Positions 4,636 to 64,000 of a stretch of DNA of 64,000 bases are shown here, one piece after another. A model generated the notes under the pieces. It made no database searches. It was not told the origin of the DNA and saw only the letters and a list, made by a program, of their open reading frames with translations. Position numbers and translations under genes: made by a program. Every line of letters begins with the position of its first letter. Within the stretch, counting starts at the first letter, position 1. This stretch comes from Picocystis sp. L7 (taxonomy: Eukaryota > Chlorophyta > Picocystophyceae > Picocystales > Picocystaceae). The stretch is taken from contig QXJR01000006.1 in assembly GCA_020975725.1 (NCBI GenBank), positions 682,001-746,000 on the forward strand, read 5' to 3'.

Positions 4636-4649
4636 GAGTGTACGAGTTC

Positions 4650-7930: not shown

Positions 7931-7938
7931 CAATGACG

Positions 7939-8820: not shown

Positions 8821-8929
8821 AATCGTACACTGCTAGGTACCCGTAGTGCAGATAATACAACTTGTGGTTCTGTGAACGCAATACGGACGCAGCGCAGCTC
8901 GTCCAACGACAATGGGTCAGCAGCACACA

Positions 8930-11439: not shown

Positions 11440-11456
11440 GTCCAATAGTTTCCGTG

Positions 11457-29730: not shown

Positions 29731-30019
29731 TCTGTCAAGGGTGTCCTGCAGTGGGTAAGTCATGATTGATTTGCATGAGGTACTTCCTAAGGTCAGCATC
29801 ATTTGGTACTGCGATGCGACCTTCAACTGTTAGCAAACCTGAAGAGTCATCATAGTTTTCATCCTCGGCTACTGCTTGAAGTAGGCGTTGATGCAATTCG
29901 TCTGACACAACATAGCTGTCGATTGTATGTACTAGCTGGACACTGTTACATACATCGTCGGCCCGAGTACTCGGTTGGGTTGTATCAATGTGAAACTGAA
30001 TTGTGGTAGGCCCACTCTG

Positions 30020-36387: not shown

Positions 36388-36395
36388 CACGGCAC

Positions 36396-36482
36396 TTGGA
36401 GCAGCAGCAGCAGCAGCAGCGGTGGATGGATGGACTTGCTGGAGCAGCAGCAGCAGCAGCAGCAATGGCAAGAGTGGATGGA
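36396..36482 (+). repeat. CAG microsatellite with GGATGGATGG between the two Harbinger-2 genes
   Basis: Two runs of about six CAG units, each followed by a GGATGG-type motif, starting within about 20 bases of the transposase stop. The 20.4-kb satellite in Harbinger-3 begins at the matching place. Confidence 0.8.
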
Positions 36483-36531
36483 TTGTGTTGTAGGGGCAAC
36501 GCCTCTGTTGAGGAATATAACCGGGACCATA

Positions 36532-37994: not shown

Positions 37995-38346
37995 GAGGCA
38001 TTCGGCAAGCCCCCCAAAAAAAACTTCCGGTTTTGCATTACGTAATTTTTTGACCGTTGACCCGGGTTTCCCGACCGGAAAATAAAATCCGGTCCGTTTT
38101 CGCCGCAAATAGTGGTTCTATTTTGGGGGATCCTCTGCGGGTCCGCGAAAAAGGAACGAAACGAGGAGGACACTCCATCGGTCATTATGGAGCGATTTGG
38201 ACACATGCTGTGAGGAAAATAATCCCTTCGTGGCCTCGGCCGTGATGGGACCCCTTCCTCGGCGGTAGCAAAGCTTGGACAAGAACGCGGGAAGGAGGGA
38301 GGAGAGAAGCACCCTGCCGCAGCGCAAAGGCAGGATCCTCGAGATC

Positions 38347-39516
38347 ATGCAGCTGAGGCGAATGCGGGTGGAGATCGCGAGGATGCGCGCCTTGTCCGTC
38401 GTCGTGACGCGTCAGTCGCCTAGCCTTGGTCTCGCGTTCGCAGCTGCGTTCGACGCCATCGCGACGGAGTGTGACGCGTTACTGCGAGAAATGATGGGCT
38501 GGTGGAGTCCGCAATGCTCTCTTGCTTCGACGGCGCGCACAGTGGACTCCTTTACGGACGACGAATTGCGGTCGTGGTTCCGGTTCGATCGAGAGGCGAT
38601 TTCCGAGCTGCGAGGGTTGCTGGAGGTCCCAGAGGTGCTGCGGTCGCGGTGCAGAAGGCGGTTTGGCGGTGAGGAGGCGTTCCTCCTCCTCCTTCGTCGG
38701 TTGGCTGGGCGTGAGCGCAACATGGAGCTCGCGCAGATTTTCGGTAGGCCTCCGCCGGCAATATCGGAGATGTACAACGTGATGCTAGACCACGTGTACG
38801 AACACGCGCGACGTGCGATGCGATTGGAAATGTGGGAGGCCCAGCTCCCGTTGTTTGCGGATGACTTGGCGCGCTGCGGGTGCCTCGAAGCTCACTGTGT
38901 GGGCTTCATCGACGGCACCATGTTCACCATCTGCCGCCCAGTGGTGGGACAGGAGAGCATGTACAATGGATGGAAGCAGTCGCACAAGGTCAAGTACCAG
39001 TGCGTTGTCCTTCCAAACTTCATGATCGGCGATTGGTTTGGACCATCTGCAGGTTGTACGAACCATCCGCAAATGCTGGTTGATTCTGAGCTTGTGCCTC
39101 GATTGCGTGCTATTTGCGAACGACTTGGACAACGGGTGTGCTTGTACGGAGATGCAGCCTATCCAGCGAGCGAGGTCCTCCTCCGTGCACCGAAACGATC
39201 GAACAGGACACCTGCCATGGCAGAGTACGCTACCGCCATGTCCCAGTACAGGGAGTGTGTTGAATGGGTCTTTGGAAAGATCGGCAATTTGTGGCCGTTC
39301 GTAACGGATGTCACAAGGAAGATGACAGGCTCCCGTGCAACTAGTAAGGAAGATTGGGTAGCAGCTTTACTAACTAACTTTCATACGTGTCGTTACGGCG
39401 GTGTTGCGAACAGTTACTTCAACACAACACCTCCTACTATGCAGGAGTACAGAAATATGTACTCGGTGGGGGGTGCACAATTACAAGGTACGAATGCGGT
39501 TGAAGCTGACCATTGA
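38347..39516 (+). CDS. Harbinger-3 DDE transposase, open reading frame intact
   Basis: 389 residues from the first ATG. The frame is open from 38275 without an ATG, and the position of the Harbinger-2 start reads CTG here, so the native N-terminus may be about 10 residues longer or lost. An N-terminal helical region with FTDDELRSWFRFDREAISEL (the usual helix-turn-helix-like block) is followed by the DDE nuclease: Asp in GFIDGTMFTICRP, Asp in YGDAAYPASEVLLRAP, Glu in RECVEWVFGKIGNLWP. The signature TNFHTCRYGG follows. It would cut and join the element's ends together with the Myb-like partner. It ends TGA at 39514-39516, directly before the satellite. No break is seen, so it may still be active. 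Confidence 0.85.
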   Translation: MQLRRMRVEIARMRALSVVVTRQSPSLGLAFAAAFDAIATECDALLREMMGWWSPQCSLASTARTVDSFTDDELRSWFRFDREAISELRGLLEVPEVLRSRCRRRFGGEEAFLLLLRRLAGRERNMELAQIFGRPPPAISEMYNVMLDHVYEHARRAMRLEMWEAQLPLFADDLARCGCLEAHCVGFIDGTMFTICRPVVGQESMYNGWKQSHKVKYQCVVLPNFMIGDWFGPSAGCTNHPQMLVDSELVPRLRAICERLGQRVCLYGDAAYPASEVLLRAPKRSNRTPAMAEYATAMSQYRECVEWVFGKIGNLWPFVTDVTRKMTGSRATSKEDWVAALLTNFHTCRYGGVANSYFNTTPPTMQEYRNMYSVGGAQLQGTNAVEADH

Positions 39517-42500
39517 CCATCCAGCAGTGCAGTAACCAGCAGCACCCATCCAGTAGCGGCAATCTAGCAGCAGCAATCCAGCAGCGGCAATCCAGCAGCA
39601 ACCATCAGCAGCAACCATCCAGCAGCAACCATCCAGCAGCATCCATCAGCAGCATCCATCCAGCAGTGCAGTAACCAGCAGCAACGGCAATCCAACATCA
39701 ACTATCAGCAGCATTCATGCAGCAGCAATCATCCAGCAGCATCCATCAGCAGCACCCATGCAGCAGCGGCAATCCAGCAGCATCCATCCAGCAGTGCAGT
39801 AACCAGCAGCAACGGCAATCCAACATCAACCATCAGCAGCACCCATGCAGCAGCATCCATCTAGCAGCGGCAATCCAGCAGCAACCATCAGCAGCATCCA
39901 TCCAGCAGTGCAGTAATTAGCAGCAACGGCAATCCAACATCAACCATCAGCAGCATCCATCCAGCAGCGGCAATCCAGCAGCATCCATCCAGCAGTGCAG
40001 TAACCAGCAGCAACGGCAATCCAACATCAACTATCAGCAGCACCCATGCAGCAGCAATCATCCAGCAGCATCCAGCAGCAGCATCCATCCAGCAACGGCA
40101 ATCCAGCATCAACCATCAGCAGCATCCATCCAGCAGCGGCAATCCAGCAGTGCAGTAACCAGCAGCAACGGCAATCCAACATCAACCATCAGCAGCATCC
40201 ATCCAGCAGCAGCATCCAGCAGCAGCATCCATCCAGCAGTGCAGTAACCAGCAGCAACGGCAATCCAACATCAACCATCAGCAGCATCCATAAAGCAGCG
40301 GCAATCCAGCAGCATCCATCCAGCAGTGCAGTAACCAGCAGCAACGGCAATCCAACATCAACTATCAGCAGCATCCATGCAGCAGCAATCATCCAGCAGC
40401 ATCCAGCAGCAGCATCCATCCAGCAACGGCAATCCAGCATCAACCATCAGCAGCATCCATGCAGCAGCAATCATCCAGCAGCATCCATCCAGCAGTGCAG
40501 TAACCAGCAGCAACGGCAATCCAACATCAACCATCAGCAGCAGCCATGCAGCAGCAATCATCCAGCAGCATCCATCCAGCAGTGCAGTAACCAGCAGCAA
40601 CGGCAATCCAACATCAACCATCAGCAGCATCCATCCAGCAGCGGCAATCCAGCAGCAGCAATCCAGCAGTGCAGTAATCAGCAGCAACGGCAATCCAACA
40701 TCAACCATCAGCAGCACCCATGCAGCAGCAATCATCCAGCAGCATCCATCCAGCAGTGCAGTAACCAGCAGCAACGGCAATCCAACATCAACTATCAGCA
40801 GCACCCATGCAGCAGCAATCATCCAGCAGCATCCAGCAGCAGCATCCATCCAGCAACGGCAATCCAGCATCAACCATCAGCAGCATCCATCCAGCAGCGG
40901 CAATCCAGCAGCAGCAATCCAGCAGTGCAGTAACCAGCAGCAACGGCAATCCAACATCAACCATCAGCAGCACCCATGCAGCAGCAATCATCCAGCAGCA
41001 TCCATCCAGCAGTGCAGTAACCAGCAGCAACGGCAATCCAACATCAACCATCAGCAGCACCCATGCAGCAGCAATCATCCAGCAGCATCCATCCAGCAGT
41101 GCAGTAACCAGCATCAACCATCAGCAGCATCCATCCAGCAGCGGCAATCCAGCAGCAACCATCCAGCAGCATCCATCCAGCAGTGCAGTAATTAGCAGCA
41201 ACGGCAATCCAACATCAACCATCAGCAGCATCCATCCAGCAGCGGCAATCCAGCAGCATCCATCCAGCAGTGCAGTAACCAGCAGCAACGGCAATCCAAC
41301 ATCAACTATCAGCAGCATCCATGCAGCAGCAATCATCCAGCAGCATCCAGCAGCAGCATCCATCCAGCAACGGCAATCCAGCATCAACCATCAGCAGCAT
41401 CCATGCAGCAGCAATCATCCAGCAGCATCCATCCAGCAGTGCAGTAACCAGCAGCAACGGCAATCCAACATCAACCATCAGCAGCACCCATGCAGCAGCA
41501 ATCATCCAGCAGCATCCAGCAGCAGCATCCATCCAGCAACGGCAATCCAGCATCAACCATCAGCAGCATCCATCCAGCAGCGGCAATCCAGCAGCAGCAA
41601 TCCAGCAGTGCAGTAACCAGCAGCAACGGCAATCCAACATCAACCATCAGCAGCACCCATGCAGCAGCAATCATCCAGCAGCATCCATCCAGCAGTGCAG
41701 TAACCAGCAGCAACGGCAATCCAACATCAACTATCAGCAGCACCCATGCAGCAGCAATCATCCAGCAGCATCCAGCAGCAGCATCCATCCAGCAACGGCA
41801 ATCCAGCATCAACCATCAGCAGCATCCATCCAGCAGCGGCAATCCAGCAGCAGCAATCCAGCAGTGCAGTAACCAGCAGCAACGGCAATCCAACATCAAC
41901 CATCAGCAGCACCCATGCAGCAGCAATCATCCAGCAGCATCCATCCAGCAGTGCAGTAACCAGCAGCAACGGCAATCCAACATCAACCATCAGCAGCACC
42001 CATGCAGCAGCAATCATCCAGCAGCATCCATCCAGCAGTGCAGTAACCAGCATCAACCATCAGCAGCATCCATCCAGCAGCGGCAATCCAGCAGCAACCA
42101 TCCAGCAGCATCCATCCAGCAGTGCAGTAATTAGCAGCAACGGCAATCCAACATCAACCATCAGCAGCATCCATCCAGCAGCGGCAATCCAGCAGCATCC
42201 ATCCAGCAGTGCAGTAACCAGCAGCAACGGCAATCCAACATCAACCATCAGCAGCACCCATGCAGCAGCGGCAATCCCGCAGCATCCATCCAGCAGTGCA
42301 GTAACCAGCAGCAACCATCAGCAGCATCCATCCAGCAGCGGCAATCCCGCAGCATCCATCCAGCAGTGCAGTAACCAGGAGCAACGGCAATCCAACATCA
42401 ACCATCAGCAGCACCCATGCAGCAGCAATCATCCAGCAGCATCCATCCAGCAACGGCAATCCAGCATCAACCTTCAGCAGCATCCTTCCAGCAGCGGCAA

Positions 42501-45500
42501 TCCAGCAGCATCCAGCAGCAGCATCCATCCAGCAACGGCAATCCAGCATCAACCATCAGCAGCATCCATCTAGCAGCGGCAATCCAGCAGCATCCATCAG
42601 CAGCATCCATCCAGCAGTGCAGTAACCAGCAGCAACGGCAATCCAACATCAACCATCAGCAGCATCCATCCAGCAGTGCAGTAACCAGCATCAACCATCA
42701 GCAGCATCCATCCAGCAGCATCCATCTAGCAGCGGCAATCCAGCATCAACCATCAGCAGCAACCATCCAGCAGCATCCATCAGCAGCATCCATCCAGCAG
42801 TGCAGTAACCAGCAGCAACGGCAATCCAACATCAACCATCAGCAGCATCCATCCAGCAGCGGCAATCCCGCAGCATCCATCCAGCAGTGCAGTAACCAGG
42901 AGCAACGGCAATCCAACATCAACCATCAGCAGCACCCATGCAGCAGCAATCATCCAGCAGCATCCATCCAGCAACGGCAATCCAGCATCAACCTTCAGCA
43001 GCATCCTTCCAGCAGCGGCAATCCAGCAGCATCCAGCAGCAGCATCCATCCAGCAACGGCAATCCAGCATCAACCATCAGCAGCATCCATCTAGCAGCGG
43101 CAATCCAGCAGCATCCATCAGCAGCATCCATCCAGCAGTGCAGTAACCAGCAGCAACGGCAATCCAACATCAACCATCAGCAGCATCCATCCAGCAGTGC
43201 AGTAACCAGCATCAACCATCAGCAGCATCCATCCAGCAGCATCCATCTAGCAGCGGCAATCCAGCATCAACCATCAGCAGCAACCATCCAGCAGCATCCA
43301 TCAGCAGCATCCATCCAGCAGTGCAGTAACCAGCAGCAACGGCAATCCAACATCAACCATCAGCAGCATCCATCCAGCAACGGCAATCCAGCATCAACCT
43401 TCAGCAGCATCCTTCCAGCAGCGGCAATCCAGCAGCATCCAGCAGCAGCATCCATCCAGCAACGGCAATCCAGCATCAACCATCAGCAGCATCCATCTAG
43501 CAGCGGCAATCCAGCAGCATCCATCAGCAGCATCCATCCAGCAGTGCAGTAACCAGCAGCAACGGCAATCCAACATCAACCATCAGCAGCATCCATCCAG
43601 CAGTGCAGTAACCAGCATCAACCATCAGCAGCATCCATCCAGCAGCATCCATCTAGCAGCGGCAATCCAGCATCAACCATCAGCAGCAACCATCCAGCAG
43701 CATCCATCAGCAGCATCCATCCAGCAGTGCAGTAACCAGCAGCAACGGCAATCCAACATCAACTATCAGCAGCATCCATGCAGCAGCAATCATCCAGCAG
43801 CATCCAGCAGCAGCATCCATCCAGCAACGGCAATCCAGCATCAACCATCAGCAGCATCCATGCAGCAGCAATCATCCAGCAGCATCCATCCAGCAGTGCA
43901 GTAACCAGCAGCAACGGCAATCCAACATCAACCATCAGCAGCAGCCATGCAGCAGCAATCATCCAGCAGCATCCATCCAGCAGTGCAGTAACCAGCAGCA
44001 ACGGCAATCCAACATCAACCATCAGCAGCATCCATCCAGCAGCGGCAATCCAGCAGTGCAGTAACCAGCAGCAACGGCAATCCAACATCAACCATCAGCA
44101 GCATCCATCCAGCAGTGCAGTAACCAGCATCAACCATCAGCAGCATCCATCCAGCAGCATCCATCTAGCAGCGGCAATCCAGCATCAACCATCAGCAGCA
44201 ACCATCCAGCAGCATCCATCCAGCAGTGCAGTAACCAGCAGCAACGGCAATCCAACATCAACCATCAGCAGCATCCATCCAGCAGCGGCAATCCAGCAGC
44301 ATCCATCCAGCAGTGCAGTAACCAGCAGCAACGGCAATCCAACATCAACCATCAGCAGCATCCATCCAGCAGCAGCATCCAGCAGCAGCATCCATCCAGC
44401 AGTGCAGTAACCAGCAGCAACGGCAATCCAACATCAACCATCAGCAGCATCCATAAAGCAGCGGCAATCCAGCAGCATCCATCCAGCAGTGCAGTAACCA
44501 GCAGCAACGGCAATCCAACATCAACCATCAGCAGCACCCATGCAGCAGCGGCAATCCAGCAGCATCCATCCAGCAGTGCAGTAACCAGCAGCAACGGCAA
44601 TCCAACATCAACCATCAGCAGCACCCATGCAGCAGCATCCATCTAGCAGCGGCAATCCAGCAGCAACCATCAGCAGCATCCATCCAGCAGTGCAGTAATT
44701 AGCAGCAACGGCAATCCAACATCAACCATCAGCAGCATCCATCCAGCAGCGGCAATCCAGCAGCATCCATCCAGCAGTGCAGTAACCAGCAGCAACGGCA
44801 ATCCAACATCAACTATCAGCAGCACCCATGCAGCAGCAATCATCCAGCAGCATCCAGCAGCAGCATCCATCCAGCAACGGCAATCCAGCATCAACCATCA
44901 GCAGCATCCATGCAGCAGCATCCATCTAGCAGCGGCAATCCAGCAGCAACCATCAGCAGCATCCATCCAGCAGCGGCAATCCAGCAGCATCCATCCAGCA
45001 GTGCAGTAACCAGCAGCAACGGCAATCCAACATCAACTATCAGCAGCACCCATGCAGCAGCAATCATCCAGCAGCATCCAGCAGCAGCATCCATCCAGCA
45101 ACGGCAATCCAGCATCAACCATCAGCAGCATCCATGCAGCAGCAATCATCCAGCAGCATCCATCCAGCAGTGCAGTAACCAGCAGCAACGGCAATCCAAC
45201 ATCAACCATCAGCAGCAGCCATGCAGCAGCAATCATCCAGCAGCATCCATCCAGCAGTGCAGTAACCAGCAGCAACGGCAATCCAACATCAACCATCAGC
45301 AGCATCCATCCAGCAGCGGCAATCCAGCAGTGCAGTAACCAGCAGCAACGGCAATCCAACATCAACCATCAGCAGCATCCATCCAGCAGTGCAGTAACCA
45401 GCATCAACCATCAGCAGCATCCATCCAGCAGCATCCATCTAGCAGCGGCAATCCAGCATCAACCATCAGCAGCAACCATCCAGCAGCATCCATCCAGCAG

Positions 45501-48500
45501 TGCAGTAACCAGCAGCAACGGCAATCCAACATCAACCATCAGCAGCATCCATCCAGCAGCGGCAATCCAGCAGCATCCATCCAGCAGTGCAGTAACCAGC
45601 AGCAACGGCAATCCAACATCAACCATCAGCAGCATCCATCCAGCAGCAGCATCCAGCAGCAGCATCCATCCAGCAGTGCAGTAACCAGCAGCAACGGCAA
45701 TCCAACATCAACCATCAGCAGCATCCATAAAGCAGCGGCAATCCAGCAGCATCCATCCAGCAGTGCAGTAACCAGCAGCAACGGCAATCCAACATCAACC
45801 ATCAGCAGCATCCATCCAGCAGCAGCATCCAGCAGCAGCATCCATCCAGCAGTGCAGTAACCAGCAGCAACGGCAATCCAACATCAACCATCAGCAGCAT
45901 CCATAAAGCAGCGGCAATCCAGCAGCATCCATCCAGCAGTGCAGTAACCAGCAGCAACGGCAATCCAACATCAACCATCAGCAGCACCCATGCAGCAGCG
46001 GCAATCCAGCAGCATCCATCCAGCAGTGCAGTAACCAGCAGCAACGGCAATCCAACATCAACCATCAGCAGCACCCATGCAGCAGCATCCATCTAGCAGC
46101 GGCAATCCAGCAGCAACCATCAGCAGCATCCATCCAGCAGTGCAGTAATTAGCAGCAACGGCAATCCAACATCAACCATCAGCAGCATCCATCCAGCAGC
46201 GGCAATCCAGCAGCATCCATCCAGCAGTGCAGTAACCAGCAGCAACGGCAATCCAACATCAACCATCAGCAGCATCCATCCAGCAGCGGTAATCCAGCAG
46301 CATCCATCCAGCAGTGCAGTAACCAGCAGCAACGGCAATCCAACATCAACCATCAGCAGCATCCATCCAGCAGCAGCATCCAGCAGCAGCATCCATCCAG
46401 CAGTGCAGTAACCAGCAGCAACGGCAATCCAACATCAACCATCAGCAGCATCCATAAAGCAGCGGCAATCCAGCAGCATCCATCCAGCAGTGCAGTAACC
46501 AGCAGCAACGGCAATCCAACATCAACCATCAGCAGCACCCATGCAGCAGCATCCATCTAGCAGCGGCAATCCAGCAGCAACCATCAGCAGCATCCATCCA
46601 GCAGTGCAGTAATTAGCAGCAACGGCAATCCAACATCAACCATCAGCAGCATCCATCCAGCAGCGGCAATCCAGCAGCATCCATCCAGCAGTGCAGTAAC
46701 CAGCAGCAACGGCAATCCAACATCAACTATCAGCAGCACCCATGCAGCAGCAATCATCCAGCAGCATCCAGCAGCAGCATCCATCCAGCAACGGCAATCC
46801 AGCATCAACCATCAGCAGCATCCATCCAGCAGCGGCAATCCAGCAGTGCAGTAACCAGCAGCAACGGCAATCCAACATCAACCATCAGCAGCATCCATCC
46901 AGCAGCAGCATCCAGCAGCAGCATCCATCCAGCAGTGCAGTAACCAGCAGCAACGGCAATCCAACATCAACCATCAGCAGCATCCATAAAGCAGCGGCAA
47001 TCCAGCAGCATCCATCCAGCAGTGCAGTAACCAGCAGCAACGGCAATCCAACATCAACTATCAGCAGCATCCATGCAGCAGCAATCATCCAGCAGCATCC
47101 AGCAGCAGCATCCATCCAGCAACGGCAATCCAGCATCAACCATCAGCAGCATCCATGCAGCAGCAATCATCCAGCAGCATCCATCCAGCAGTGCAGTAAC
47201 CAGCAGCAACGGCAATCCAACATAAACCATCAGCAGCAGCCATGCAGCAGCAATCATCCAGCAGCATCCATCCAGCAGTGCAGTAACCAGCAGCAACGGC
47301 AATCCAACATCAACCATCAGCAGCATCCATCCAGCAGCGGCAATCCAGCAGTGCAGTAACCAGCAGCAACGGCAATCCAACATCAACCATCAGCAGCATC
47401 CATCCAGCAGTGCAGTAACCAGCATCAACCATCAGCAGCATCCATCCAGCAGCATCCATCTAGCAGCGGCAATCCAGCATCAACCATCAGCAGCAACCAT
47501 CCAGCAGCATCCATCCAGCAGTGCAGTAACCAGCAGCAACGGCAATCCAACATCAACCATCAGCAGCATCCATCCAGCAGCGGCAATCCAGCAGCATCCA
47601 TCCAGCAGTGCAGTAACCAGCAGCAACGGCAATCCAACATCAACCATCAGCAGCATCCATCCAGCAGCAGCATCCAGCAGCAGCATCCATCCAGCAGTGC
47701 AGTAACCAGCAGCAACGGCAATCCAACATCAACCATCAGCAGCATCCATAAAGCAGCGGCAATCCAGCAGCATCCATCCAGCAGTGCAGTAACCAGCAGC
47801 AACGGCAATCCAACATCAACCATCAGCAGCACCCATGCAGCAGCGGCAATCCAGCAGCATCCATCCAGCAGTGCAGTAACCAGCAGCAACGGCAATCCAA
47901 CATCAACCATCAGCAGCACCCATGCAGCAGCATCCATCTAGCAGCGGCAATCCAGCAGCAACCATCAGCAGCATCCATCCAGCAGTGCAGTAATTAGCAG
48001 CAACGGCAATCCAACATCAACCATCAGCAGCATCCATCCAGCAGCGGCAATCCAGCAGCATCCATCCAGCAGTGCAGTAACCAGCAGCAACGGCAATCCA
48101 ACATCAACTATCAGCAGCACCCATGCAGCAGCAATCATCCAGCAGCATCCAGCAGCAGCATCCATCCAGCACCGGCAATCCAGCATCAACCATCAGCAGC
48201 ATCCATCCAGCAGCGGCAATCCAGCAGTGCAGTAACCAGCAGCAACGGCAATCCAACATCAACCATCAGCAGCATCCATAAAGCAGCGGCAATCCAGCAG
48301 CATCCATCCAGCAGTGCAGTAACCAGCAGCAACGGCAATCCAACATCAACTATCAGCAGCATCCATGCAGCAGCAATCATCCAGCAGCATCCAGCAGCAG
48401 CATCCATCCAGCAACGGCAATCCAGCATCAACCATCAGCAGCATCCATGCAGCAGCAATCATCCAGCAGCATCCATCCAGCAGTGCAGTAACCAGCAGCA

Positions 48501-51500
48501 ACGGCAATCCAACATCAACCATCAGCAGCAGCCATGCAGCAGCAATCATCCAGCAGCATCCATCCAGCAGTGCAGTAACCAGCAGCAACGGCAATCCAAC
48601 ATCAACCATCAGCAGCATCCATCCAGCAGCGGCAATCCAGCAGTGCAGTAACCAGCAGCAACGGCAATCCAACATCAACCATCAGCAGCATCCATCCAGC
48701 AGTGCAGTAACCAGCATCAACCATCAGCAGCATCCATCCAGCAGCATCCATCTAGCAGCGGCAATCCAGCATCAACCATCAGCAGCAACCATCCAGCAGC
48801 ATCCATCCAGCAGTGCAGTAACCAGCAGCAACGGCAATCCAACATCAACCATCAGCAGCATCCATCCAGCAGCGGCAATCCAGCAGCATCCATCCAGCAG
48901 TGCAGTAACCAGCAGCAACGGCAATCCAACATCAACCATCAGCAGCATCCATCCAGCAGCAGCATCCAGCAGCAGCATCCATCCAGCAGTGCAGTAACCA
49001 GCAGCAACGGCAATCCAACATCAACCATCAGCAGCATCCATCAGCAGCACCCATGCAGCAGCATCCATCTAGCAGCGGCAATCCAGCAGCAACCATCAGC
49101 AGCATCCATCCAGCAGTGCAGTAATTAGCAGCAACGGCAATCCAACATCAACCATCAGCAGCATCCATCCAGCAGCGGCAATCCAGCAGCATCCATCCAG
49201 CAGTGCAGTAACCAGCAGCAACGGCAATCCAACATCAACTATCAGCAGCACCCATGCAGCAGCAATCATCCAGCAGCATCCAGCAGCAGCATCCATCCAG
49301 CAACGGCAATCCAGCATCAACCATCAGCAGCATCCATCCAGCAGCGGCAATCCAGCAGTGCAGTAACCAGCAGCAACGGCAATCCAACATCAACCATCAG
49401 CAGCATCCATCCAGCAGCAGCATCCAGCAGCAGCATCCATCCAGCAGTGCAGTAACCAGCAGCAACGGCAATCCAACATCAACCATCAGCAGCATCCATA
49501 AAGCAGCGGCAATCCAGCAGCATCCATCCAGCAGTGCAGTAACCAGCAGCAACGGCAATCCAACATCAACTATCAGCAGCACCCATGCAGCAGCAATCAT
49601 CCAGCAGCATCCAGCAGCAGCATCCATCCAGCAACGGCAATCCAGCATCAACCATCAGCAGCATCCATCCAGCAGCGGCAATCCAGCAGCAGCAATCCAG
49701 CAGTGCAGTAACCAGCAGCAACGGCAATCCAACATCAACCATCAGCAGCACCCATGCAGCAGCAATCATCCAGCAGCATCCATCCAGCAGTGCAGTAACC
49801 AGCAGCAACGGCAATCCAACATCAACCATCAGCAGCACCCATGCAGCAGCAATCATCCAGCAGCATCCATCCAGCAGTGCAGTAACCAGCATCAACCATC
49901 AGCAGCATCCATCCAGCAGCGGCAATCCAGCAGCAACCATCCAGCAGCATCCATCCAGCAGTGCAGTAATTAGCAGCAACGGCAATCCAACATCAACCAT
50001 CAGCAGCATCCATCCAGCAGCGGCAATCCAGCAGCATCCATCCAGCAGTGCAGTAACCAGCAGCAACGGCAATCCAACATCAACTATCAGCAGCATCCAT
50101 GCAGCAGCAATCATCCAGCAGCATCCAGCAGCAGCATCCATCCAGCAACGGCAATCCAGCATCAACCATCAGCAGCATCCATGCAGCAGCAATCATCCAG
50201 CAGCATCCATCCAGCAGTGCAGTAACCAGCAGCAACGGCAATCCAACATCAACCATCAGCAGCAGCCATGCAGCAGCAATCATCCAGCAGCATCCATCCA
50301 GCAGTGCAGTAACCAGCAGCAACGGCAATCCAACATCAACCATCAGCAGCATCCATCCAGCAGCGGCAATCCAGCAGTGCAGTAACCAGCAGCAACGGCA
50401 ATCCAACATCAACCATCAGCAGCATCCATCCAGCAGTGCAGTAACCAGCATCAACCATCAGCAGCATCCATCCAGCAGCATCCATCTAGCAGCGGCAATC
50501 CAGCATCAACCATCAGCAGCAACCATCCAGCAGCATCCATCCAGCAGTGCAGTAACCAGCAGCAACGGCAATCCAACATCAACCATCAGCAGCATCCATC
50601 CAGCAGCGGCAATCCAGCAGCATCCATCCAGCAGTGCAGTAACCAGCAGCAACGGCAATCCAACATCAACTATCAGCAGCATCCATGCAGCAGCAATCAT
50701 CCAGCAGCATCCAGCAGCAGCATCCATCCAGCAACGGCAATCCAACATCAACTATCAGCAGCATCCATGCAGCAGCAATCATCCAGCAGCATCCATCCAG
50801 CAACGGCAATCCAGCATCAACTATCAGCAGCATCCATGCAGCAGCAATCATCCAGCAGCATCCAGCAGCAGCATCCATCCAGCAACGGCAATCCAGCATC
50901 AACCATCAGCAGCACCCATCCAGCAGCGGCAATCCCGCAGCATCCATCCAGCAGTGCAGTAACCAGCAGCAACGGCAATCCAACATCAACCATCAGCAGC
51001 ACCCATGCAGCAGCAATCATCCAGCAGCATCCAGCAGCAGCATCCATCCAGCAACGGCAATCCAGCATCAACCATCAGCAGCATCCATCCAGCAGCGGCA
51101 ATCCCGCAGCATCCATCCAGCAGTGCAGTAACCAGCAGCAACGGCAATCCAACATCAACCATCAGCAGCACCCATGCAGCAGCAATCATCCAGCAGCATC
51201 CAGCAGCAGCATCCATCCAGCAACGGCAATCCAGCATCAACCATCAGCAGCATCCATCCAGCAGCATCCATCCAGCAGCGGCAATCCAGCACCGGCAATC
51301 CAGCAGCAACCATCAGTAGCATCCATCCAGCAGCGGCAATCCAGCAGCATCCATCCAGCAGTGCAGTAACCAGCAGCAACGGCAATCCAACATCAACCAT
51401 CAGCAGCATCCATAAAGCAGCGGCAATCCCGCAGCATCCATCCAGCAGTGCAGCAACCAGCAGCAACGGCAATCCAACATCAACCATGAGCAGCACCCAT

Positions 51501-54500
51501 GCAGCAGCAATCATCCAGCAGCATCCAGCAGCAGCATCCATCCAGCAACGGCAATCCAGCATCAACCATCAGCAGCATCCATGCAGCAGCAATCATCCAG
51601 CAGCATCCATCCAGCAGTGCAGTAACCAGCAGCAACGGCAATCCAACATCAACCATCAGCAGCACCCATGCAGCAGCAATCATCCAGCAGCATCCAGCAG
51701 CAGCATCCATCCAGCAACGGCAATCCAGCATCAACCATCAGCAGCATCCATCCAGCAGCATCCATTCAGCAGCGGCAATCCAGCAGCAACCATCAGCAGC
51801 AACCATCCAGCAGCATCCATCAGCAGCATCCATCCAGCAGTGCAGTAACCAGCAGCAACGGCAATCCAACATCAACCATCAGCAGCACCCATGCAGCAGC
51901 AATCATCCAGCAGCATCCAGCAGCAGCATCCATCCAGCAACGGCAATCCAGCATCAACCATCAGCAGCATCCATGCAGCAGCAATCATCCAGCAGCATCC
52001 ATCCAGCAGTGCAGTAACCAGCAGCAACGGCAATCCAACATCAACCATCAGCAGCACCCATGCAGCAGCAATCATCCAGCAGCATCCAGCAGCAGCATCC
52101 ATCCAGCAACGGCAATCCAGCATCAACCATCAGCAGCATCCATCCAGCAGCATCCATTCAGCAGCGGCAATCCAGCAGCAACCATCAGCAGCAACCATCC
52201 AGCAGCATCCATCAGCAGCATCCATCCAGCAGTGCAGTAACCAGCAGCAACGGCAATCCAACATCAACCATCAGCAGCACCCATGCAGCAGCAATCATCC
52301 AGCAGCATCCAGCAGCAGCATCCATCCAGCAACGGCAATCCAGCATCAACCATCAGCAGCATCCATGCAGCAGCAATCATCCAGCAGCATCCATCCAGCA
52401 GTGCAGTAACCAGCAGCAACGGCAATCCAACATCAACCATCAGCAGCACCCATGCAGCAGCAATCATCCAGCAGCATCCAGCAGCAGCATCCATCCAGCA
52501 ACGGCAATCCAGCATCAACCATCAGCAGCACCCATCCAGCAGCATCCATCCAGCAGCGGCAATCCAGCACCGGCAATCCAGCAGCAACCATCAGCAGCAT
52601 CCATCCAGCAGCGGCAATCCAGCAGCATCCATCCAGCAGTGCAGTAACAAGCAGCAACGGCAATCCAACATCAACCATCAGCAGCATCCATGCAGCAGCA
52701 ATCATCCAGCAGCATCCAGCAGCAGCATCCATCCAGCAACGGCAATCCAGCATCAACCATCAGCAGCATCCATGCAGCAGCAATCATCCAGCAGCATCCA
52801 GCAGCAGCATCCATCCAGCAACGGCAATCCAGCATCAACCATCAGCAGCATCCATCCAGCAGCATCCATTCAGCAGCGGCAATCCAGCAGCAACCATCAG
52901 CAGCAACCATCCAGCAGCAACCATCCAGCAGCATCCATCCAGCAGTGCAGTAACCAGCAGCAACGGCAATCCAACATCAACCATCAGCAGCACCCATGCA
53001 GCAGCAATCATCCAGCAGCATCCAGCAGCAGCATCCATCCAGCAACGGCAATCCAGCATCAACCATCAGCAGCATCCATGCAGCAGCAATCATCCAGCAG
53101 CATCCATCCAGCAGTGCAGTAACCAGCAGCAACGGCAATCCAACATCAACCATCAGCAGCACCCATGCAGCAGCAATCATCCAGCAGCATCCAGCAGCAG
53201 CATCCATCCAGCAACGGCAATCCAGCATCAACCATCAGCAGCATCCATCCAGCAGCATCCATTCAGCAGCGGCAATCCAGCAGCAACCATCAGCAGCAAC
53301 CATCCAGCAGCATCCATCAGCAGCATCCATCCAGCAGTGCAGTAACCAGCAGCAACGGCAATCCAACATCAACCATCAGCAGCATCCATCCAGCAGTGCA
53401 GTAACCAGCATCAACCATCAGCAGCATCCATCCAGCAGCATCCATCTAGCAGCGGCAATCCAGCATCAACCATCAGCAGCAACCATCCAGCAGCATCCAT
53501 CCAGCAGTGCAGTAACCAGCAGCAACGGCAATCCAACATCAACCATCAGCAGCATCCATCCAGCAGCGGCAATCCAGCAGCATCCATCCAGCAGTGCAGT
53601 AACCAGCAGCAACGGCAATCCAACATCAACTATCAGCAGCATCCATGCAGCAGCAATCATCCAGCAGCATCCAGCAGCAGCATCCATCCAGCAACGGCAA
53701 TCCAACATCAACTATCAGCAGCATCCATGCAGCAGCAATCATCCAGCAGCATCCATCCAGCAACGGCAATCCAGCATCAACTATCAGCAGCATCCATGCA
53801 GCAGCAATCATCCAGCAGCATCCAGCAGCAGCATCCATCCAGCAACGGCAATCCAGCATCAACCATCAGCAGCACCCATCCAGCAGCGGCAATCCCGCAG
53901 CATCCATCCAGCAGTGCAGTAACCAGCAGCAACGGCAATCCAACATCAACCATCAGCAGCACCCATGCAGCAGCAATCATCCAGCAGCATCCAGCAGCAG
54001 CATCCATCCAGCAACGGCAATCCAGCATCAACCATCAGCAGCACCCATCCAGCAGCATCCATCCAGCAGCGGCAATCCAGCACCGGCAATCCAGCAGCAA
54101 CCATCAGCAGCATCCATCCAGCAGCGGCAATCCAGCAGCATCCATCCAGCAGTGCAGTAACAAGCAGCAACGGCAATCCAACATCAACCATCAGCAGCAT
54201 CCATAAAGCAGCGGCAATCCCGCAGCATCCATCTAGCAGTGCAGTAACCAGCAGCAACGGCAATCCAACATCAACCATCAGCAGCACCCATGCAGCAGCA
54301 ATCATCCAGCAGCATCCATCCAGCAGTGCAGTAACCAGCAGCAACGGCAATCCAACATCAACCATCAGCAGCACCCATCCAGCAGCGGCAATCCCGCAGC
54401 ATCCATCCAGCAGTGCAGTAACCAGCAGCAACGGCAATCCAACATAAACCATCAGCAGCACCCATGCAGCAGCAATCATCCAGCAGCATCCAGCAGCAGC

Positions 54501-57500
54501 ATCCATCCAGCAACGGCAATCCAGCATCAACCATCAGCAGCATCCATCCAGCAGCATCCATCCAGCAGCGGCAATCCAGCACCGGCAATCCAGCAGCAAC
54601 CATCAGCAGCATCCATCCAGCAGCGGCAATCCAGCAGCATCCATCCAGCAGTGCAGTAACCAGCAGCAAAGGCAATCCAACATCAACCATCAGCAGCATC
54701 CATAAAGCAGCGGCAATCCCGCAGCATCCATCCAGCAGTGCAGCAACCAGCAGCAACGGCAATCCAACATCAACCATCAGCAGCACCCATGCAGCAGCAA
54801 TCATCCAGCAGCATCCAGCAGCAGCATCCATCCAGCAACGGCAATCCAGCATCAACCATCAGCAGCATCCATGCAGCAGCAATCATCCAGCAGCATCCAT
54901 CCAGCAGTGCAGTAACCAGCAGCAACGGCAATCCAACATCAACCATCAGCAGCACCCATGCAGCAGCAATCATCCAGCAGCATCCAGCAGCAGCATCCAT
55001 CCAGCAACGGCAATCCAGCATCAACCATCAGCAGCATCCATCCAGCAGCATCCATTCAGCAGCGGCAATCCAGCAGCAACCATCAGCAGCAACCATCCAG
55101 CAGCATCCATCAGCAGCATCCATCCAGCAGTGCAGTAACCAGCAGCAACGGCAATCCAACATCAACCATCAGCAGCACCCATGCAGCAGCAATCATCCAG
55201 CAGCATCCATCCAGCAGTGCAGTAACCAGCAGCAATGGCAATCCAACATCAACTATCAGCAGCATTCATGCAGCAGCAATCATCCAGCAGCATCCAGCAG
55301 CAGCATCCATCCAGCAACGGCAATCCAGCATCAACCTTCAGCAGCATCCTTCCAGCAGCGGCAATCCAGCAGCAGCAATCCAGCACCGGCAATCCAGCAT
55401 CAACCATCAGCAGCATCCATCCAGCAGCATCCATCTAGCAGCGGCAATCCAGCAGCAACCATCAGCAGCACCCATGCAGCAGCAATCATCCAGCAGCATC
55501 CAGCAGCAGCATCCATCCAGCAACGGCAATCCAGCATCAACCATCAGCAGCATCCATGCAGCAGCAATCATCCAGCAGCATCCATCCAGCAGTGCAGTAA
55601 CCAGCAGCAACGGCAATCCAACATCAACCATCAGCAGCACCCATGCAGCAGCAATCATCCAGCAGCATCCAGCAGCAGCATCCATCCAGCAACGGCAATC
55701 CAGCATCAACCATCAGCAGCATCCATCCAGCAGCATCCATTCAGCAGCGGCAATCCAGCAGCAACCATCAGCAGCAACCATCCAGCAGCATCCATCAGCA
55801 GCATCCATCCAGCAGTGCAGTAACCAGCAGCAACGGCAATCCAACATCAACCATCAGCAGCACCCATGCAGCAGCAATCATCCAGCAGCATCCAGCAGCA
55901 GCATCCATCCAGCAACGGCAATCCAGCATCAACCATCAGCAGCATCCATGCAGCAGCAATCATCCAGCAGCATCCATCCAGCAGTGCAGTAACCAGCAGC
56001 AACGGCAATCCAACATCAACCATCAGCAGCACCCATGCAGCAGCAATCATCCAGCAGCATCCAGCAGCAGCATCCATCCAGCAACGGCAATCCAGCATCA
56101 ACCATCAGCAGCACCCATCCAGCAGCATCCATCCAGCAGCGGCAATCCAGCACCGGCAATCCAGCATCAACCATCAGCAGCATCCATAAAGCAGCGGCAA
56201 TCCAGCAGCATCCATCCAGCAGTGCAGTAACAAGCAGCAACGGCAATCCAACATCAACCATCAGCAGCATCCATGCAGCAGCAATCATCCAGCAGCATCC
56301 AGCAGCAGCATCCATCCAGCAACGGCAATCCAGCATCAACCATCAGCAGCATCCATGCAGCAGCAATCATCCAGCAGCATCCATCCAGCAGTGCAGTAAC
56401 CAGCAGCAACGGCAATCCAACATCAACCATCAGCAGCACCCATGCAGCAGCAATCATCCAGCAGCATCCAGCAGCAGCATCCATCCAGCAACGGCAATCC
56501 AGCATCAACCATCAGCAGCATCCATCCAGCAGCATCCATTCAGCAGCGGCAATCCAGCAGCAACCATCAGCAGCAACCATCCAGCAGCATCCATCAGCAG
56601 CATCCATCCAGCAGTGCAGTAACCAGCAGCAACGGCAATCCAACATCAACCATCAGCAGCACCCATGCAGCAGCAATCATCCAGCAGCATCCATCCAGCA
56701 GTGCAGTAACCAGCAGCAATGGCAATCCAACATCAACTATCAGCAGCATTCATGCAGCAGCAATCATCCAGCAGCATCCAGCAGCAGCATCCATCCAGCA
56801 ACGGCAATCCAGCATCAACCTTCAGCAGCATCCTTCCAGCAGCGGCAATCCAGCAGCAGCAATCCAGCACCGGCAATCCAGCATCAACCATCAGCAGCAT
56901 CCATCCAGCAGCATCCATCTAGCAGCGGCAATCCAGCAGCAACCATCAGCAGCACCCATGCAGCAGCAATCATCCAGCAGCATCCAGCAGCAGCATCCAT
57001 CCAGCAACGGCAATCCAGCATCAACCATCAGCAGCATCCATGCAGCAGCAATCATCCAGCAGCATCCATCCAGCAGTGCAGTAACCAGCAGCAACGGCAA
57101 TCCAACATCAACCATCAGCAGCACCCATGCAGCAGCAATCATCCAGCAGCATCCAGCAGCAGCATCCATCCAGCAACGGCAATCCAGCATCAACCATCAG
57201 CAGCATCCATCCAGCAGCATCCATTCAGCAGCGGCAATCCAACATCAACCATCAGCAGCACCCATGCAGCAGCAATCATCCAGCAGCATCCATCCAGCAG
57301 TGCAGTAACCAGCAGCAACGGCAATCCAACATCAACCATCAGCAGCACCCATCCAGCAGCGGCAATCCCGCAGCATCCATCCAGCAGTGCAGTAACCAGC
57401 AGCAACGGCAATCCAACATCAACCATCAGCAGCACCCATGCAGCAGCAATCATCCAGCAGCATCCAGCAGCAGCATCCATCCAGCAACGGCAATCCAGCA

Positions 57501-59910
57501 TCAACCATCAGCAGCATCCATCCAGCAGCATCCATCCAGCAGCGGCAATCCAGCACCGGCAATCCAGCAGCAACCATCAGTAGCATCCATCCAGCAGCGG
57601 CAATCCAGCAGCATCCATCCAGCAGTGCAGTAACCAGCAGCAACGGCAATCCAACATCAACCATCAGCAGCATCCATAAAGCAGCGGCAATCCCGCAGCA
57701 TCCATCCAGCAGTGCAGCAACCAGCAGCAACGGCAATCCAACATCAACCATGAGCAGCACCCATGCAGCAGCAATCATCCAGCAGCATCCAGCAGCAGCA
57801 TCCATCCAGCAACGGCAATCCAGCATCAACCATCAGCAGCATCCATGCAGCAGCAATCATCCAGCAGCATCCATCCAGCAGTGCAGTAACCAGCAGCAAC
57901 GGCAATCCAACATCAACCATCAGCAGCACCCATGCAGCAGCAATCATCCAGCAGCATCCAGCAGCAGCATCCATCCAGCAACGGCAATCCAGCATCAACC
58001 ATCAGCAGCATCCATCCAGCAGCATCCATTCAGCAGCGGCAATCCAGCAGCAACCATCAGCAGCATCCATGCAGCAGCAATCATCCAGCAGCATCCATCC
58101 AGCAACGGCAATCCAGCATCAACTATCAGCAGCATCCATGCAGCAGCAATCATCCAGCAGCATCCAGCAGCAGCATCCATCCAGCAACGGCAATCCAGCA
58201 TCAACCATCAGCAGCACCCATCCAGCAGCGGCAATCCCGCAGCATCCATCCAGCAGTGCAGTAACCAGCAGCAACGGCAATCCAACATCAACCATCAGCA
58301 GCACCCATGCAGCAGCAATCATCCAGCAGCATCCAGCAGCAGCATCCATCCAGCAACGGCAATCCAGCATCAACCATCAGCAGCACCCATCCAGCAGCAT
58401 CCATCCAGCAGCGGCAATCCAGCACCGGCAATCCAGCAGCAACCATCAGCAGCATCCATCCAGCAGCGGCAATCCAGCAGCATCCATCCAGCAGTGCAGT
58501 AACAAGCAGCAACGGCAATCCAACATCAACCATCAGCAGCATCCATAAAGCAGCGGCAATCCCGCAGCATCCATCTAGCAGTGCAGTAACCAGCAGCAAC
58601 GGCAATCCAACATCAACCATCAGCAGCACCCATGCAGCAGCAATCATCCAGCAGCATCCATCCAGCAGTGCAGTAACCAGCAGCAACGGCAATCCAACAT
58701 CAACCATCAGCAGCACCCATCCAGCAGCGGCAATCCCGCAGCATCCATCCAGCAGTGCAGTAACCAGCAGCAACGGCAATCCAACATAAACCATCAGCAG
58801 CACCCATGCAGCAGCAATCATCCAGCAGCATCCAGCAGCAGCATCCATCCAGCAACGGCAATCCAGCATCAACCATCAGCAGCATCCATCCAGCAGCATC
58901 CATCCAGCAGCGGCAATCCAGCACCGGCAATCCAGCAGCAACCATCAGCAGCATCCATCCAGCAGCGGCAATCCAGCAGCATCCATCCAGCAGTGCAGTA
59001 ACCAGCAGCAACGGCAATCCAACATCAACCATCAGCAGCATCCATAAAGCAGCGGCAATCCCGCAGCATCCATCCAGCAGTGCAGCAACCAGCAGCAACG
59101 GCAATCCAACATCAACCATCAGCAGCACCCATGCAGCAGCAATCATCCAGCAGCATCCAGCAGCAGCATCCATCCAGCAACGGCAATCCAGCATCAACCA
59201 TCAGCAGCATCCATGCAGCAGCAATCATCCAGCAGCATCCATCCAGCAGTGCAGTAACCAGCAGCAACGGCAATCCAACATCAACCATCAGCAGCACCCA
59301 TGCAGCAGCAATCATCCAGCAGCATCCAGCAGCAGCATCCATCCAGCAACGGCAATCCAGCATCAACCATCAGCAGCATCCATTCAGCAGCGGCAATCCA
59401 GCAGCAACCATCAGCAGCAACCATCCAGCAGCATCCATCAGCAGCATCCATCCAGCAGTGCAGTAACCAGCAGCAACGGCAATCCAACATCAACCATCAG
59501 CAGCACCCATGCAGCAGCAATCATCCAGCAGCATCCATCCAGCAGTGCAGTAACCAGCAGCAATGGCAATCCAACATCAACTATCAGCAGCATTCATGCA
59601 GCAGCAATCATCCAGCAGCATCCAGCAGCAGCATCCATCCAGCAACGGCAATCCAGCATCAACCTTCAGCAGCATCCTTCCAGCAGCGGCAATCCAGCAG
59701 CAGCAATCCAGCACCGGCAATCCAGCATCAACCATCAGCAGCATCCATCCAGCAGCATCCATCTAGCAGCGGCAATCCAGCAGCAACCATCAGCAGCAAC
59801 CATCCAGCAGCAACCATCCAGCAGCATCCATCAGCAGCATCCATCCAGAAGTGCAGTAACCAGCAGCAACCATCCAGCAGCATCCATCCAACATCAACCA
59901 TCTAGCAACG
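39517..59910. repeat. 20.4-kb CAG-rich satellite array
   Basis: Built from roughly 14-bp pieces of the type CAGCAGCATCCATC arranged in a unit of about 87 bp. For example, CATCCATCCAGCAGTGCAG starts at 40482, 40569 and 40743, and at 44213 and 44300. There is room for about 230 units. Higher-order blocks recur at offsets such as 392, 521, 1274, 1484, 2960 and 4342 bp, some apparently identical. The top strand is rich in C and A and poor in T. Long open frames in several frames on both strands (Gln/Ser/His/Pro-rich on plus, Leu/Cys/Ala-rich on minus) are by-products of the repeat. Confidence 0.95.
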
Positions 59911-60189
59911 ACAATATGAAGAAGAAGCAGGTGCCAAATGTTCATGTATGGCACCTGACTCCGCTCGTAAACCAACAACCTGCCTTGTAATAATTTTGTA
60001 CTGTTGCTGCCAAAAAGAATGTACGCGCGTCTTCCCAATGTAAATACGACGAACACAAACGATTTCAAGCACCTGCACGAAAACTTCCGACGCGAATGAG
60101 GTAGATTCTTGCGTAGAGAACAAACAATAGGGAAATTTGGCAAAGAATGATAAAGAAAAGAAAGGAAACAGGAATTTACACAAGGCAAG
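59911..60189. other. Non-repeat 3' flank of the Harbinger-3 Myb-like gene
   Basis: Unique sequence between the array and the Myb-like gene end. It would hold that gene's 3' untranslated region on the minus strand. I see no other feature. Confidence 0.5.
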
Positions 60190-61059
60190 TTAGACGTCAC
60201 ATACGTTTGCTATGTCGACGTTGTTGAGGTCATCCTCTTCTGATGTCGGATTGTCCTCCACCGACGAACGGTGCAGCTTCGCGCGATGCGCTGCCACTGC
60301 TTTCGCAATCCAAGCTTCCTTTGGTCCAGGATCGGGCGCCACGTGCGGATGCAATTTGTAGAATTTGTCCGCCTTCATCCACGCCATCTCCGCTTGCGTC
60401 TCAACGTGCTCCTCCATAGCGAGCATGAGTAGGTTGTTGGTATCGCGCATACTCGCTTCCAGTTGCGCGATACTGGAGCGACCTCCGCCGCTGCCATGGC
60501 TCTGGCGATCGGACGAGGCGCGCCTTGCCCGTTTTCCGTGTGTTTCCATGGACTTCCTCAGGGCTTGCTTCGCATCCTCGTCCAGTCGCGCCAGCTTCGT
60601 GTTCCGCTGCTCCTTCGCAATCGCCCGTTGCTGCTTCAAACCGTCGCGCAAGTCCAACAGGCGCTGGACTCCTTGTTCGAGGTCGGTGTGCACTGCACAC
60701 CCCCCTCGACCGGTCGCAGCCTAGGCCTCTGCATTTCGCTTGTCGTGCTTCTCCATCAAAGCAGCCAATTGGCGCTGGACAGTCCTCTGACACAGGGTGA
60801 AGTTGTCGAACAGGCCGTCTGGATGCCTTCGCAAGCCATCCAGCAAGTTCGACCAGGCCGCGTTGATCGCTCCATGGGAGCCCTTGCCAATCGGACAGCA
60901 TTCGTCCATATACATCTGATTGACGAGCGCAATCTGTTGCGCTTCGTTCCACGTGTTCCGCTTCGCCTTCAATCCTTCATGCGCGACGTTTGGCGTCTCC
61001 GTGATTTCGACATTGTCGTCACGCACAGCCAATGGGTGGTGCGCCTGGATACTGCCCAT
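60190..61059 (-). pseudogene. Harbinger-3 Myb/SANT-like gene (one in-frame stop)
   Basis: 289 codons from the ATG at 61059 to a TAA, interrupted only by TAG at 60721-60723, where the Harbinger-2 copy has Leu. Order: acidic start (DDNVEITETPNVAHEG), Myb/SANT core (RNTWNEAQQIALVNQMYMDE, then INAAWSNLLDGL), helical segment (VQRQLAALMEKHDKRNAE), a second helical stretch (TDLEQGVQRLLDLRDGLKQQRA), a Lys/Arg-rich nuclear-targeting stretch (HGKRARRASS), and an acidic tail with the shared AVAAHRAKL motif. Probable role: binding terminal or subterminal repeats and bringing the transposase to the nucleus. With a single stop, this copy is the best kept of the three, and read-through cannot be excluded. 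Confidence 0.68.
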
Positions 61060-61189
61060 TGCGCACTCAATTCAAACGCCATTGCTCGACGAAAAAGTCC
61101 TGCTTCCTCGTCGATGGATGCAAATTACAGAATTTTGCAGAATTGTTGGAACTCTTCGCCCTCCATCGGATCATCGTCCAGGTCAGAAA

Positions 61190-63415: not shown

Positions 63416-63417
63416 CC

Positions 63418-63865
63418 TGTCTTGCCGAGGTTGTCCTTCGACGATGAGGAATATGCACTCAATCGTGAGGCTTTTGAGAGGTTCTCAATTATATTCGGGC
63501 CATTCACTTGGGACTTGTTTGCCTCGCCAAACAATGCCCAATGTCCGGCCTTCTTTACACGGGAGACCAATGCTCTCACCCAAGAATGGGCTAGTCTTGG
63601 CAACCTATGGGCACACCCACCCTGTTGCCTCATTGACTCCGTGATAGGCAAGCTGGAGGCCGAACCTAGAGCCCTTGTGACCATGATCACTCCGCATTGG
63701 CCAAAGGCTCCCTGGTTCCCTCGCTTGCAGCATCTCGCTACCTACCAGGAGGTACTAGGGAGGCATGAGGGAATATTCTCGGATGCCCAAGGAAGGCCCT
63801 TGCCTTCCCCTCACTGGGACGTCCTCCTTAGCCATGTCCCTAGGCGGATGCAGGGCCAGGACTAA
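63418..63865 (+). mobile_element. DIRS-like retroelement fragment (RNase H end)
   Basis: About 148 codons with the pattern typical of the RNase H end in tyrosine-recombinase retrotransposons: WDLFASPNNAQCPAFFTRE, then LWAHPPCC, then a TPHWPKAPWFPRL block. Neither the RT upstream nor the recombinase downstream is present in the window. The fragment abuts copia-2 head to head at about 63415. The family call rests on motif memory; a related gypsy-like element is possible. Confidence 0.5.
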
Positions 63866-64000
63866 CCCGAATAGGGACCGGTTTGTCCCCCTTTCTAATA
63901 AGGGCTCTGTGGCCGATGAACCGGATAAATACGTGGCTTAGCCACGGGCGGATTCCCCAATGGAGTTAAGATGTAATATTAATTGCGGCGGAGGGGAACG
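63866..64000. other. Unassigned right edge
   Basis: No recognisable feature in the last 135 bp. Confidence 0.4.

Follow-up and report, generated by a model that had tools for sequence, protein, structure and literature searches.

The window analysed here, a stretch of 64,000 nucleotides (C4:682001-746000), belongs to a genome of 20.5 Mb in 30 contigs. The host is regarded as a Picocystis-like green alga, because the HSP90 of this genome is identical across 704 residues to a Picocystis sp. ML protein. The RuBisCO large subunit, tried as another species marker, gave no match. A EukProt set labelled Pavlova lutheri (a haptophyte) contains proteins (P0010, P0120, and P0227) that are 96-100% identical to proteins of the green-algal genome, with P0010 matching at 100% over 362 residues and P0120 at 100% over 87% of HSP90; probably, the label is wrong or the set is contaminated. 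Within the window lies a Harbinger-like DNA transposon, whose transposase gene and second gene converge on a tandem array (Table 1). The earlier note had described a satellite of 20.4 kb directly behind the transposase stop codon and had placed the element at 37995..61110. The array does begin with the first base after this codon (39516), and the left side of the element is as proposed; the right side was incomplete, as the right terminal inverted repeat (TIR) ends at C4:749117. This TIR lies beyond the window because a copia LTR retrotransposon inserted at 61199 split the Harbinger-like element. The copia (C4:743199-748905) is located between gene 2 and the right end, with the target site duplication CAAGG and its last base set by the TG...CA rule, and its insertion is considered recent because its LTRs are identical over 423 of 423 aligned bases. 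The whole element, copia and array included, comprises 29,123 bp; without both of them it measures about 3,020 bp, against 3,019 bp in C11 once the spacer of that copy is subtracted.

Table 1. Parts of the Harbinger-like element and adjoining features (window positions, unless preceded by C4)
Feature	Position	Strand	Remarks
Left TIR (GAGGCATTCGGCAAG...)	37995..38031	+	TA precedes; 37/37 against the inverted right TIR of C11
Transposase ORF (DDE_Tnp_4)	38275..39516	+	first ATG at 38347
Minisatellite array	39517..59907	+	20,391 bp in the assembly; TRF periods 14/41/87/169
Array left edge	39517..39742	+	outside every exact repeat of at least 100 bp
Array right edge	59799..59907	+	outside every exact repeat of at least 100 bp
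Hairpin (CAGGTGCCA...TGGCACCTG) abutting the array	59926..59960	+	z -3.7
Gene 2	60193..61059	-	289 codons; 95% identical to P0227; one in-frame TAG
Copia LTR retrotransposon within the Harbinger-like element	61199..64000	-	runs on to C4:748905
Right TIR of the window copy	C4:749081-749117		outside the window; TA after the end
CAG-rich spacer of the neighbouring Harbinger-2	36388..36500	+	short; TRF score <50

Two gypsy-like elements are also present in the window (7765-9261 and 29735-31240) and contain, between the polymerase and integrase parts, a segment which we take to be C5 cytosine methyltransferase-like (GVPCQPFSRAN; NVLELCAGGTGTLLL). In the list of open reading frames, near-identical ORFs of opposite orientation (1564-3216 and 10994-12542) flank a gypsy-like element and constitute an inverted repeat on the kilobase scale.

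The window transposase matches PF13359 with an E-value of 4.5e-13 (49.6 bits, cut-off 24.8), and its frame is open over 415 codons; the MPQR start, whose ATG is present in C11, C7, and several homologues, has CTG in its place. At position 240, the window protein has His where 22 of 22 other aligned proteins have Asp. Catalytic death caused by this change was considered, and the idea is weakened by the DDE triad, which, as judged by spacing, would consist of D189, D269, and E306 and is intact in the window protein. Asp240 is, according to the alignment, a near-invariant residue and not a proven catalytic one. The search for relatives of the transposase among solved structures gave chance-level matches only. 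Gene 2 is open over 293 codons in C11, C18, and C3_1119k and is broken in C7 and C3_288k. For the C11 protein and for P0227, no Pfam family scored above its own cut-off, and the best Pfam match among eight relatives was NTE_Ploop (6e-4, one member). The model of the gene 2 protein consists of three N-terminal helices followed by long helices (mean pLDDT 59.6) and found no match among solved structures. A Myb domain was not given by the Pfam search, the model, or the structure comparison. Open transposase frames of 400 aa are present in C11 and C7. The window copy is probably not autonomous, because both its transposase and its gene 2 contain damaging-looking changes, and it may still be moved in trans.

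PIF/Harbinger elements have TIRs, encode a DDE_Tnp_4 transposase and a second protein with a Myb/SANT-like domain, and generate a 3-bp target site duplication, TWA. The family of the window element (H3) resembles them in its DDE_Tnp_4-type transposase, its TIRs, and the presence of a second gene; it differs in the second protein, in which no Myb domain was recognised, and in the flanking duplications. The TIRs of about 37 bp were found at both ends of the window copy, C11, C18, C7, and C3_1119k, and also of two insertion-split copies (C3_36k and C3_288k), if the pieces of the latter are rightly paired. In six of these seven copies two flanking bases match, namely TA in the window copy, C18, C7, C3_1119k, and the split C3_36k, and GA in the split C3_288k; the flanks of C11 are TA/TT. 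Because most copies show this 2-bp duplication and not the 3-bp TWA, the element is filed as Harbinger-like only. The C7 copy (L023) stands between direct repeats of about 40 bp of flanking DNA, which far exceed the 2-bp duplication found elsewhere.

The transposase region has 47 matches in the genome, and eight copies form the H3 family. It had been suggested that other copies should be sought and the spacer between their genes measured; seven others were found, and their spacers, made of the same minisatellite, range from 115 to 2,393 bp. Counted from the stop codon of the transposase up to where the conserved gene-2 side begins, the lengths are 115 bp (C7), 128 bp (C3_1119k), 148 bp (C27), 196 bp (C3_36k), 327 bp (C3_288k), 776 bp (C11), 2,393 bp (C18), and 20,391 bp (window). 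All these spacers consist of CCATCCAGCAGCA-type repeats, the minisatellite being present in eight of eight copies. At least part of both genes is kept in six of the seven other copies; beyond the spacer of each lies all or much of gene 2, convergent with the transposase. This bears out the earlier note, in which both genes were assigned to a single element. In the seventh copy (C27), 93 bp of the gene-2 side is left beside the spacer. Insertions split two of the copies, C3_288k within the transposase and C3_36k within gene 2. Within the C18 minisatellite, a non-repeat piece of about 351 bp was noticed (L022 spacer, about 1910-2261; reverse strand, locus 3399-5791). Variants of the hairpin that abuts the array occur in all seven other copies. 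Distances from the window copy, each based on a number of sites that differs between copies, are 0.017 for C11, 0.027 for C18, 0.036 for C3_36k, 0.043 for C7, 0.063 for C27, 0.075 for C3_1119k, and 0.083 for C3_288k. The closest copy, C11 (45 of 2,724 sites differ), has a spacer of only 776 bp, and the two closest, C11 and C18, have the longest spacers after that of the window copy. No significant correlation between spacer length and distance was found, either for all copies (Spearman -0.67, p 0.07, n=8) or without the window copy (Spearman -0.5, p 0.25).

The repetition of the window array is far beyond chance. TRF rows with periods of 14, 41, 87, and 169 cover nearly the whole of it, 94.8% lies within exact repeats of at least 200 bp, and the members of the longest exact repeat pair (971 bp) are 1,484 bp apart. 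A frequent anchor recurs every 87 bp in 55 of 151 spacings, the number of distinct 30-mers is 1,733, and no inverted 20-mers were found within the array. On the + strand, CAGCA occurs 2154 times and TGCTG 0 times. Pairs of exact 200-bp repeats that span a cut near 50.5 kb reach 0.11 of the expected number, the lowest value among the cuts scanned, and pairs of 100-bp repeats reach 0.38 there; because so few pairs span this cut, two domains of the array are considered to have grown largely on their own. Block duplications fill the array between unique edges: no exact repeat of at least 100 bp extends into its first 226 or its last 109 bases. The left edge is, from its first base, in register with the left edges of C18, C3_288k, C3_36k, and C3_1119k and out of register with C11 and C7, and the right edge is, to its last base, in register only with C3_36k and out of register with the others, in an alignment driven partly by composition, as these edges are themselves made of repeats. 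A coding extension of the transposase was considered and rejected: read-through ends after 16 codons in the window copy and after 16-174 codons in five other copies. Stops in the three sense frames of the array number 64, 79, and 69.

As in satellites, the array is long, homogenised, non-coding, and tandem. The other mark of a satellite, occurrence of one repeat at multiple loci or throughout a chromosomal domain, was not found, since the expanded unit is confined to one locus. A 50-mer of this unit has, with up to three mismatches, 141 places in the genome, and 141 of 141 are inside the window array. A 22-mer core has 105 genome matches with at most one mismatch, and all of the approximately 100 listed fall in H3 spacers. 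The seeding of the satellite elsewhere by this transposon, a question raised by the earlier note, was therefore not seen, and the genome search with the 50-mer and up to three mismatches revealed the expanded unit at no other locus.

Repeats at this place are found in many Harbinger-like families. At 33 of 35 sites, which include related copies, an array with a TRF score of at least 50 follows the 3' end of the transposase; about 15 families are represented, grouped by eye because mostly the 3' ends alone were read. From the 23 places fetched, two (L055 and L057) were dropped, the transposase end being cut away by other DNA. Ten of the 23 were chosen before their 3' ends were seen, each as the open-frame representative of what appeared to be a further family, and in 10 of 10 a tandem array follows the stop, starting about 60-330 bp behind it; in several of these families the array sits behind an apparent intron. 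The two sites lacking an array of this score are the Harbinger-2 of the window and a degenerate relative of it on C23. The gap of about 350 bp between the Harbinger-2 genes, given in the earlier note, is thus only part of the picture, as this spacer holds short CAG runs (TRF <50), and an array with a score of at least 50 was found in the spacer of six of the seven other Harbinger-2-type copies read, the units of this type being GCAGCAGCGGTGGATGGATGG. At the same site, the repeat sequence differs from family to family, and most of these arrays are far shorter than that of the window copy. The sister family (77%, four copies) has a different repeat, the array of the H4 family has a 205-bp period, and the H5 family has units of about 40 bp, with two units in one copy and at least 1.19 kb in another. 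Other long arrays may exist among the families, several running past the fetched piece. Gene 2 is convergent beyond the array in H3, the sister family, H2, H4, H5, and H6, and a hairpin follows the repeats in both the H3 and the H2 copy of the window. On the transposase-sense strand, CAGCA outnumbers TGCTG at 34 of 35 sites, F8 being opposite. When F9 and F10 are treated as one group, the bias holds in 14 of 15; the sign test gives 0.001 but is not independent, because the families are related by descent.

Two further observations concern single copies of these families. Two H4 copies of opposite orientation (L053, C4:951k, and L054, C4:473k) look the same throughout the fetched 3' region and its minisatellite when compared by eye, as would result from recent transposition or segmental duplication. 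Near the transposase 3' end, the C23 copy (C23:269600; L066, reverse strand, 1-240) contains a GT...AG stretch, an apparent intron, and a C1 copy of the same family (C1:830780; L065, 1-140) is precisely without it; apparently, an intron was gained, or precisely lost, between the copies.

Tandem arrays outside Harbinger-like elements were used for comparison. The 188,414 bp fetched (the window and 15 loci) contain 26 merged TRF arrays, of which 16 belong to or adjoin Harbinger spacers and the other 10 do not. The density of CAGCA plus TGCTG is 2.3-10.7 per 100 bp in the 16 spacer arrays and exceeds 2 per 100 bp in three of the other ten (a copia ORF at window 23528, L028, and L029), with at least one CAGCA or TGCTG in seven of the ten; on these counts, tandem CAG arrays elsewhere are fewer, yet present. 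Three HSP90 loci (13.6 kb) contain one TRF stretch, with no CAG in its printed units. A genome scan by motif only (three CAGCAGCA, spacing 8-34 bp) gave 774 forward and 279 reverse matches, compared with 2 and 0 in the reversed control. Among the matches listed, which cover C1 to C3 and then C4 as far as C4:721.7 kb (in total about 4.0 Mb), there are six clusters, and six of six lie directly downstream of a Harbinger transposase, on the transposase strand. A search for viral relatives in IMG/VR yielded 44 pattern matches, none of which was confirmed.

It is already known that repeats inside transposons can become satellites, with examples in Ogre 3'UTRs, Tetris, Helentrons, and Vaccinium Harbingers. 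Passages on Tat/Ogre LTR retrotransposons describe hypervariable tandem repeats in the 3'UTR, some of them grown to long satellites (PMC7004042); it has been proposed that they arose when copies packaged together underwent illegitimate recombination or abnormal strand transfer (PMC7004042, citing Macas 2009). The likeness to Ogre lies in a fixed site downstream of coding sequence, at which repeat sequence and unit length vary between elements; over the 35 sites, position was likewise fixed, and repeat sequence and length varied between families. However, Ogre is a retrotransposon, whereas the element described here, a DNA transposon of the cut-and-paste type, has two convergent genes and does not undergo co-packaging. 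In Vaccinium, as excerpts of the report state, three to five tandem units related to VaccSat7 are present in the non-autonomous HARB-N1_VCo and HARB-N7_VMa, the satellite is derived from the transposon, and the Harbingers have 3-bp duplications, TAA/TTA (PMC7290377). These are also Harbinger-type elements with tandem units, but they are non-autonomous, their repeats stem from the terminal part and lie near the 3' terminus, and two families share one repeat, whereas here the elements carry transposase genes, the repeats occupy the space between the genes, and they differ among about 15 families. For the foldback transposon Tetris of Drosophila virilis, it is stated in parts of the paper that internal tandem repeats seeded kb-long satellite-like arrays, and unequal crossing over was suggested (PMC4079207); Tetris is likewise a DNA transposon with internal arrays, but it is non-autonomous and has one repeat, located within its TIRs. 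Central satellite-like arrays are described for Helitron/Helentron elements (PMC12628747; PMC7492417), which resemble the present case in the central array of a DNA element; however, Helentrons are rolling-circle elements and spread their repeats, while the expanded unit has not spread here. Harbinger is absent from the main text of two reviews (PMC12628747; PMC9659126), and in the passages of another study Harbinger elements are merely counted (PMC4524691). The main text of the Picocystis sp. ML genome note gives 0.11% as masked by RepeatMasker and does not mention Harbinger spacer repeats (PMC6346183). Among the papers listed from the open-access literature, as judged by titles, abstract starts, and passages, none was seen to report that Harbinger families with a transposase retain a repeat site between their two genes. 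What is new is one repeat site kept over many such families while its sequence turns over.

It is quite likely that a short, inherited minisatellite between the convergent genes of one element expanded in place to 20.4 kb. The birth of a satellite in a transposon, claimed by the earlier note, stands as growth inside the element and is not supported as an origin de novo at this locus, as the minisatellite is present in each of the eight copies and other families have repeats of their own. According to the proposed mechanism, one Harbinger-like DNA transposon would have inherited the short minisatellite, and repeated duplication of blocks, from hundreds of bases to about 1 kb or more, would have expanded the array in place; unequal sister-chromatid exchange or break-induced copying may have driven this duplication. 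The seed minisatellite would be a standing part of the element clade, either kept or regenerated. The site between the genes may tolerate repeats and its CAG-rich DNA may be prone to expansion, perhaps with a contribution of excision-gap repair. Growth in place is most likely because the expanded unit was found nowhere else in the genome, and we infer that it followed the insertion at the window locus. The array structure appears to fit iterated block duplication by unequal exchange, and not single-unit slippage alone.

Why repeats occupy this site at all could be explained in two ways. The first is mutation, in which CAG-rich DNA beside a hairpin, free of coding constraint, would expand and perhaps be recopied in excision-gap repair; the second is selection for a spacer, a terminator, or a binding module. 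The strand bias and the constant position speak for selection, the loss of motif identity and the copies of only 115-148 bp for mutation. Under selection, the minisatellite would be a working part, either the 3'UTR, terminator, or insulator of the transposase or an array bound by a protein of the element; nothing but its position and a sense-strand CAGCA core would be conserved, and the giant array would be its runaway form. The presence of an array at 33 of 35 sites, the transposase-sense CAGCA bias (34 of 35 sites; 14 of 15 groups), the hairpin behind the repeats in the H3 and H2 copies of the window, and the location of all six CAG-array clusters listed over 4 Mb, each downstream of a Harbinger transposase on the same strand, are consistent with such a part. 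However, the units vary by family, the orientation in F8 is opposite, some copies keep only 115-148 bp, and the sign test draws on related families; this explanation appears rather doubtful.

The length of the array could also be misassembled. A false expansion of a short array would account for the fact that one of eight H3 copies is so long while the other spacers are at most 2.4 kb, and the length is known from the assembled sequence alone; however, 1,733 distinct 30-mers and two domains do not resemble plain reiteration, and the edges join unique sequence on both sides, which makes an artefact improbable. It could be assumed, too, that the expansion predates the insertion and that a transposon of 23 kb was moved by a transposase acting in trans. 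Both TIRs with TA flanks and the open frames of C11 and C7 would allow it, but the unit occurs at no second place and the seven other copies are short, which leaves this order of events little probability. That two different elements surround a pre-existing satellite is ruled out for practical purposes by the six other copies in which a repeat spacer separates the two genes, each present at least in part, and a right TIR just after the transposase (39516 in the window), named by the earlier note as the sign of such a pair, was seen in none of the seven other copies read.

Expansion in place of an inherited minisatellite bears on the question of how satellite arrays begin, an open one since intermediates seldom survive. 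In a single 20-Mb genome, the copies of one transposon family form a size series from 115 bp to 20.4 kb, and in approximately 14 further groups of related elements the corresponding site is occupied by a minisatellite particular to the group. Satellite DNA thus seems to arise again and again at one set position within Harbinger-like elements. Tentatively, it may even be proposed from these comparisons that the Harbinger-like clade keeps a fast-renewed minisatellite as a working part between its genes, free in sequence and constant in place and in its sense CAGCA core, from which satellites would be born repeatedly, the 20-kb array being a runaway in an immobile copy. As Ogre-style co-packaging is unusable by a DNA transposon, the causes should be sought in the site itself, in recombination, CAG-rich DNA, gap repair, or selection, and these site-intrinsic causes are separable in a culturable alga.
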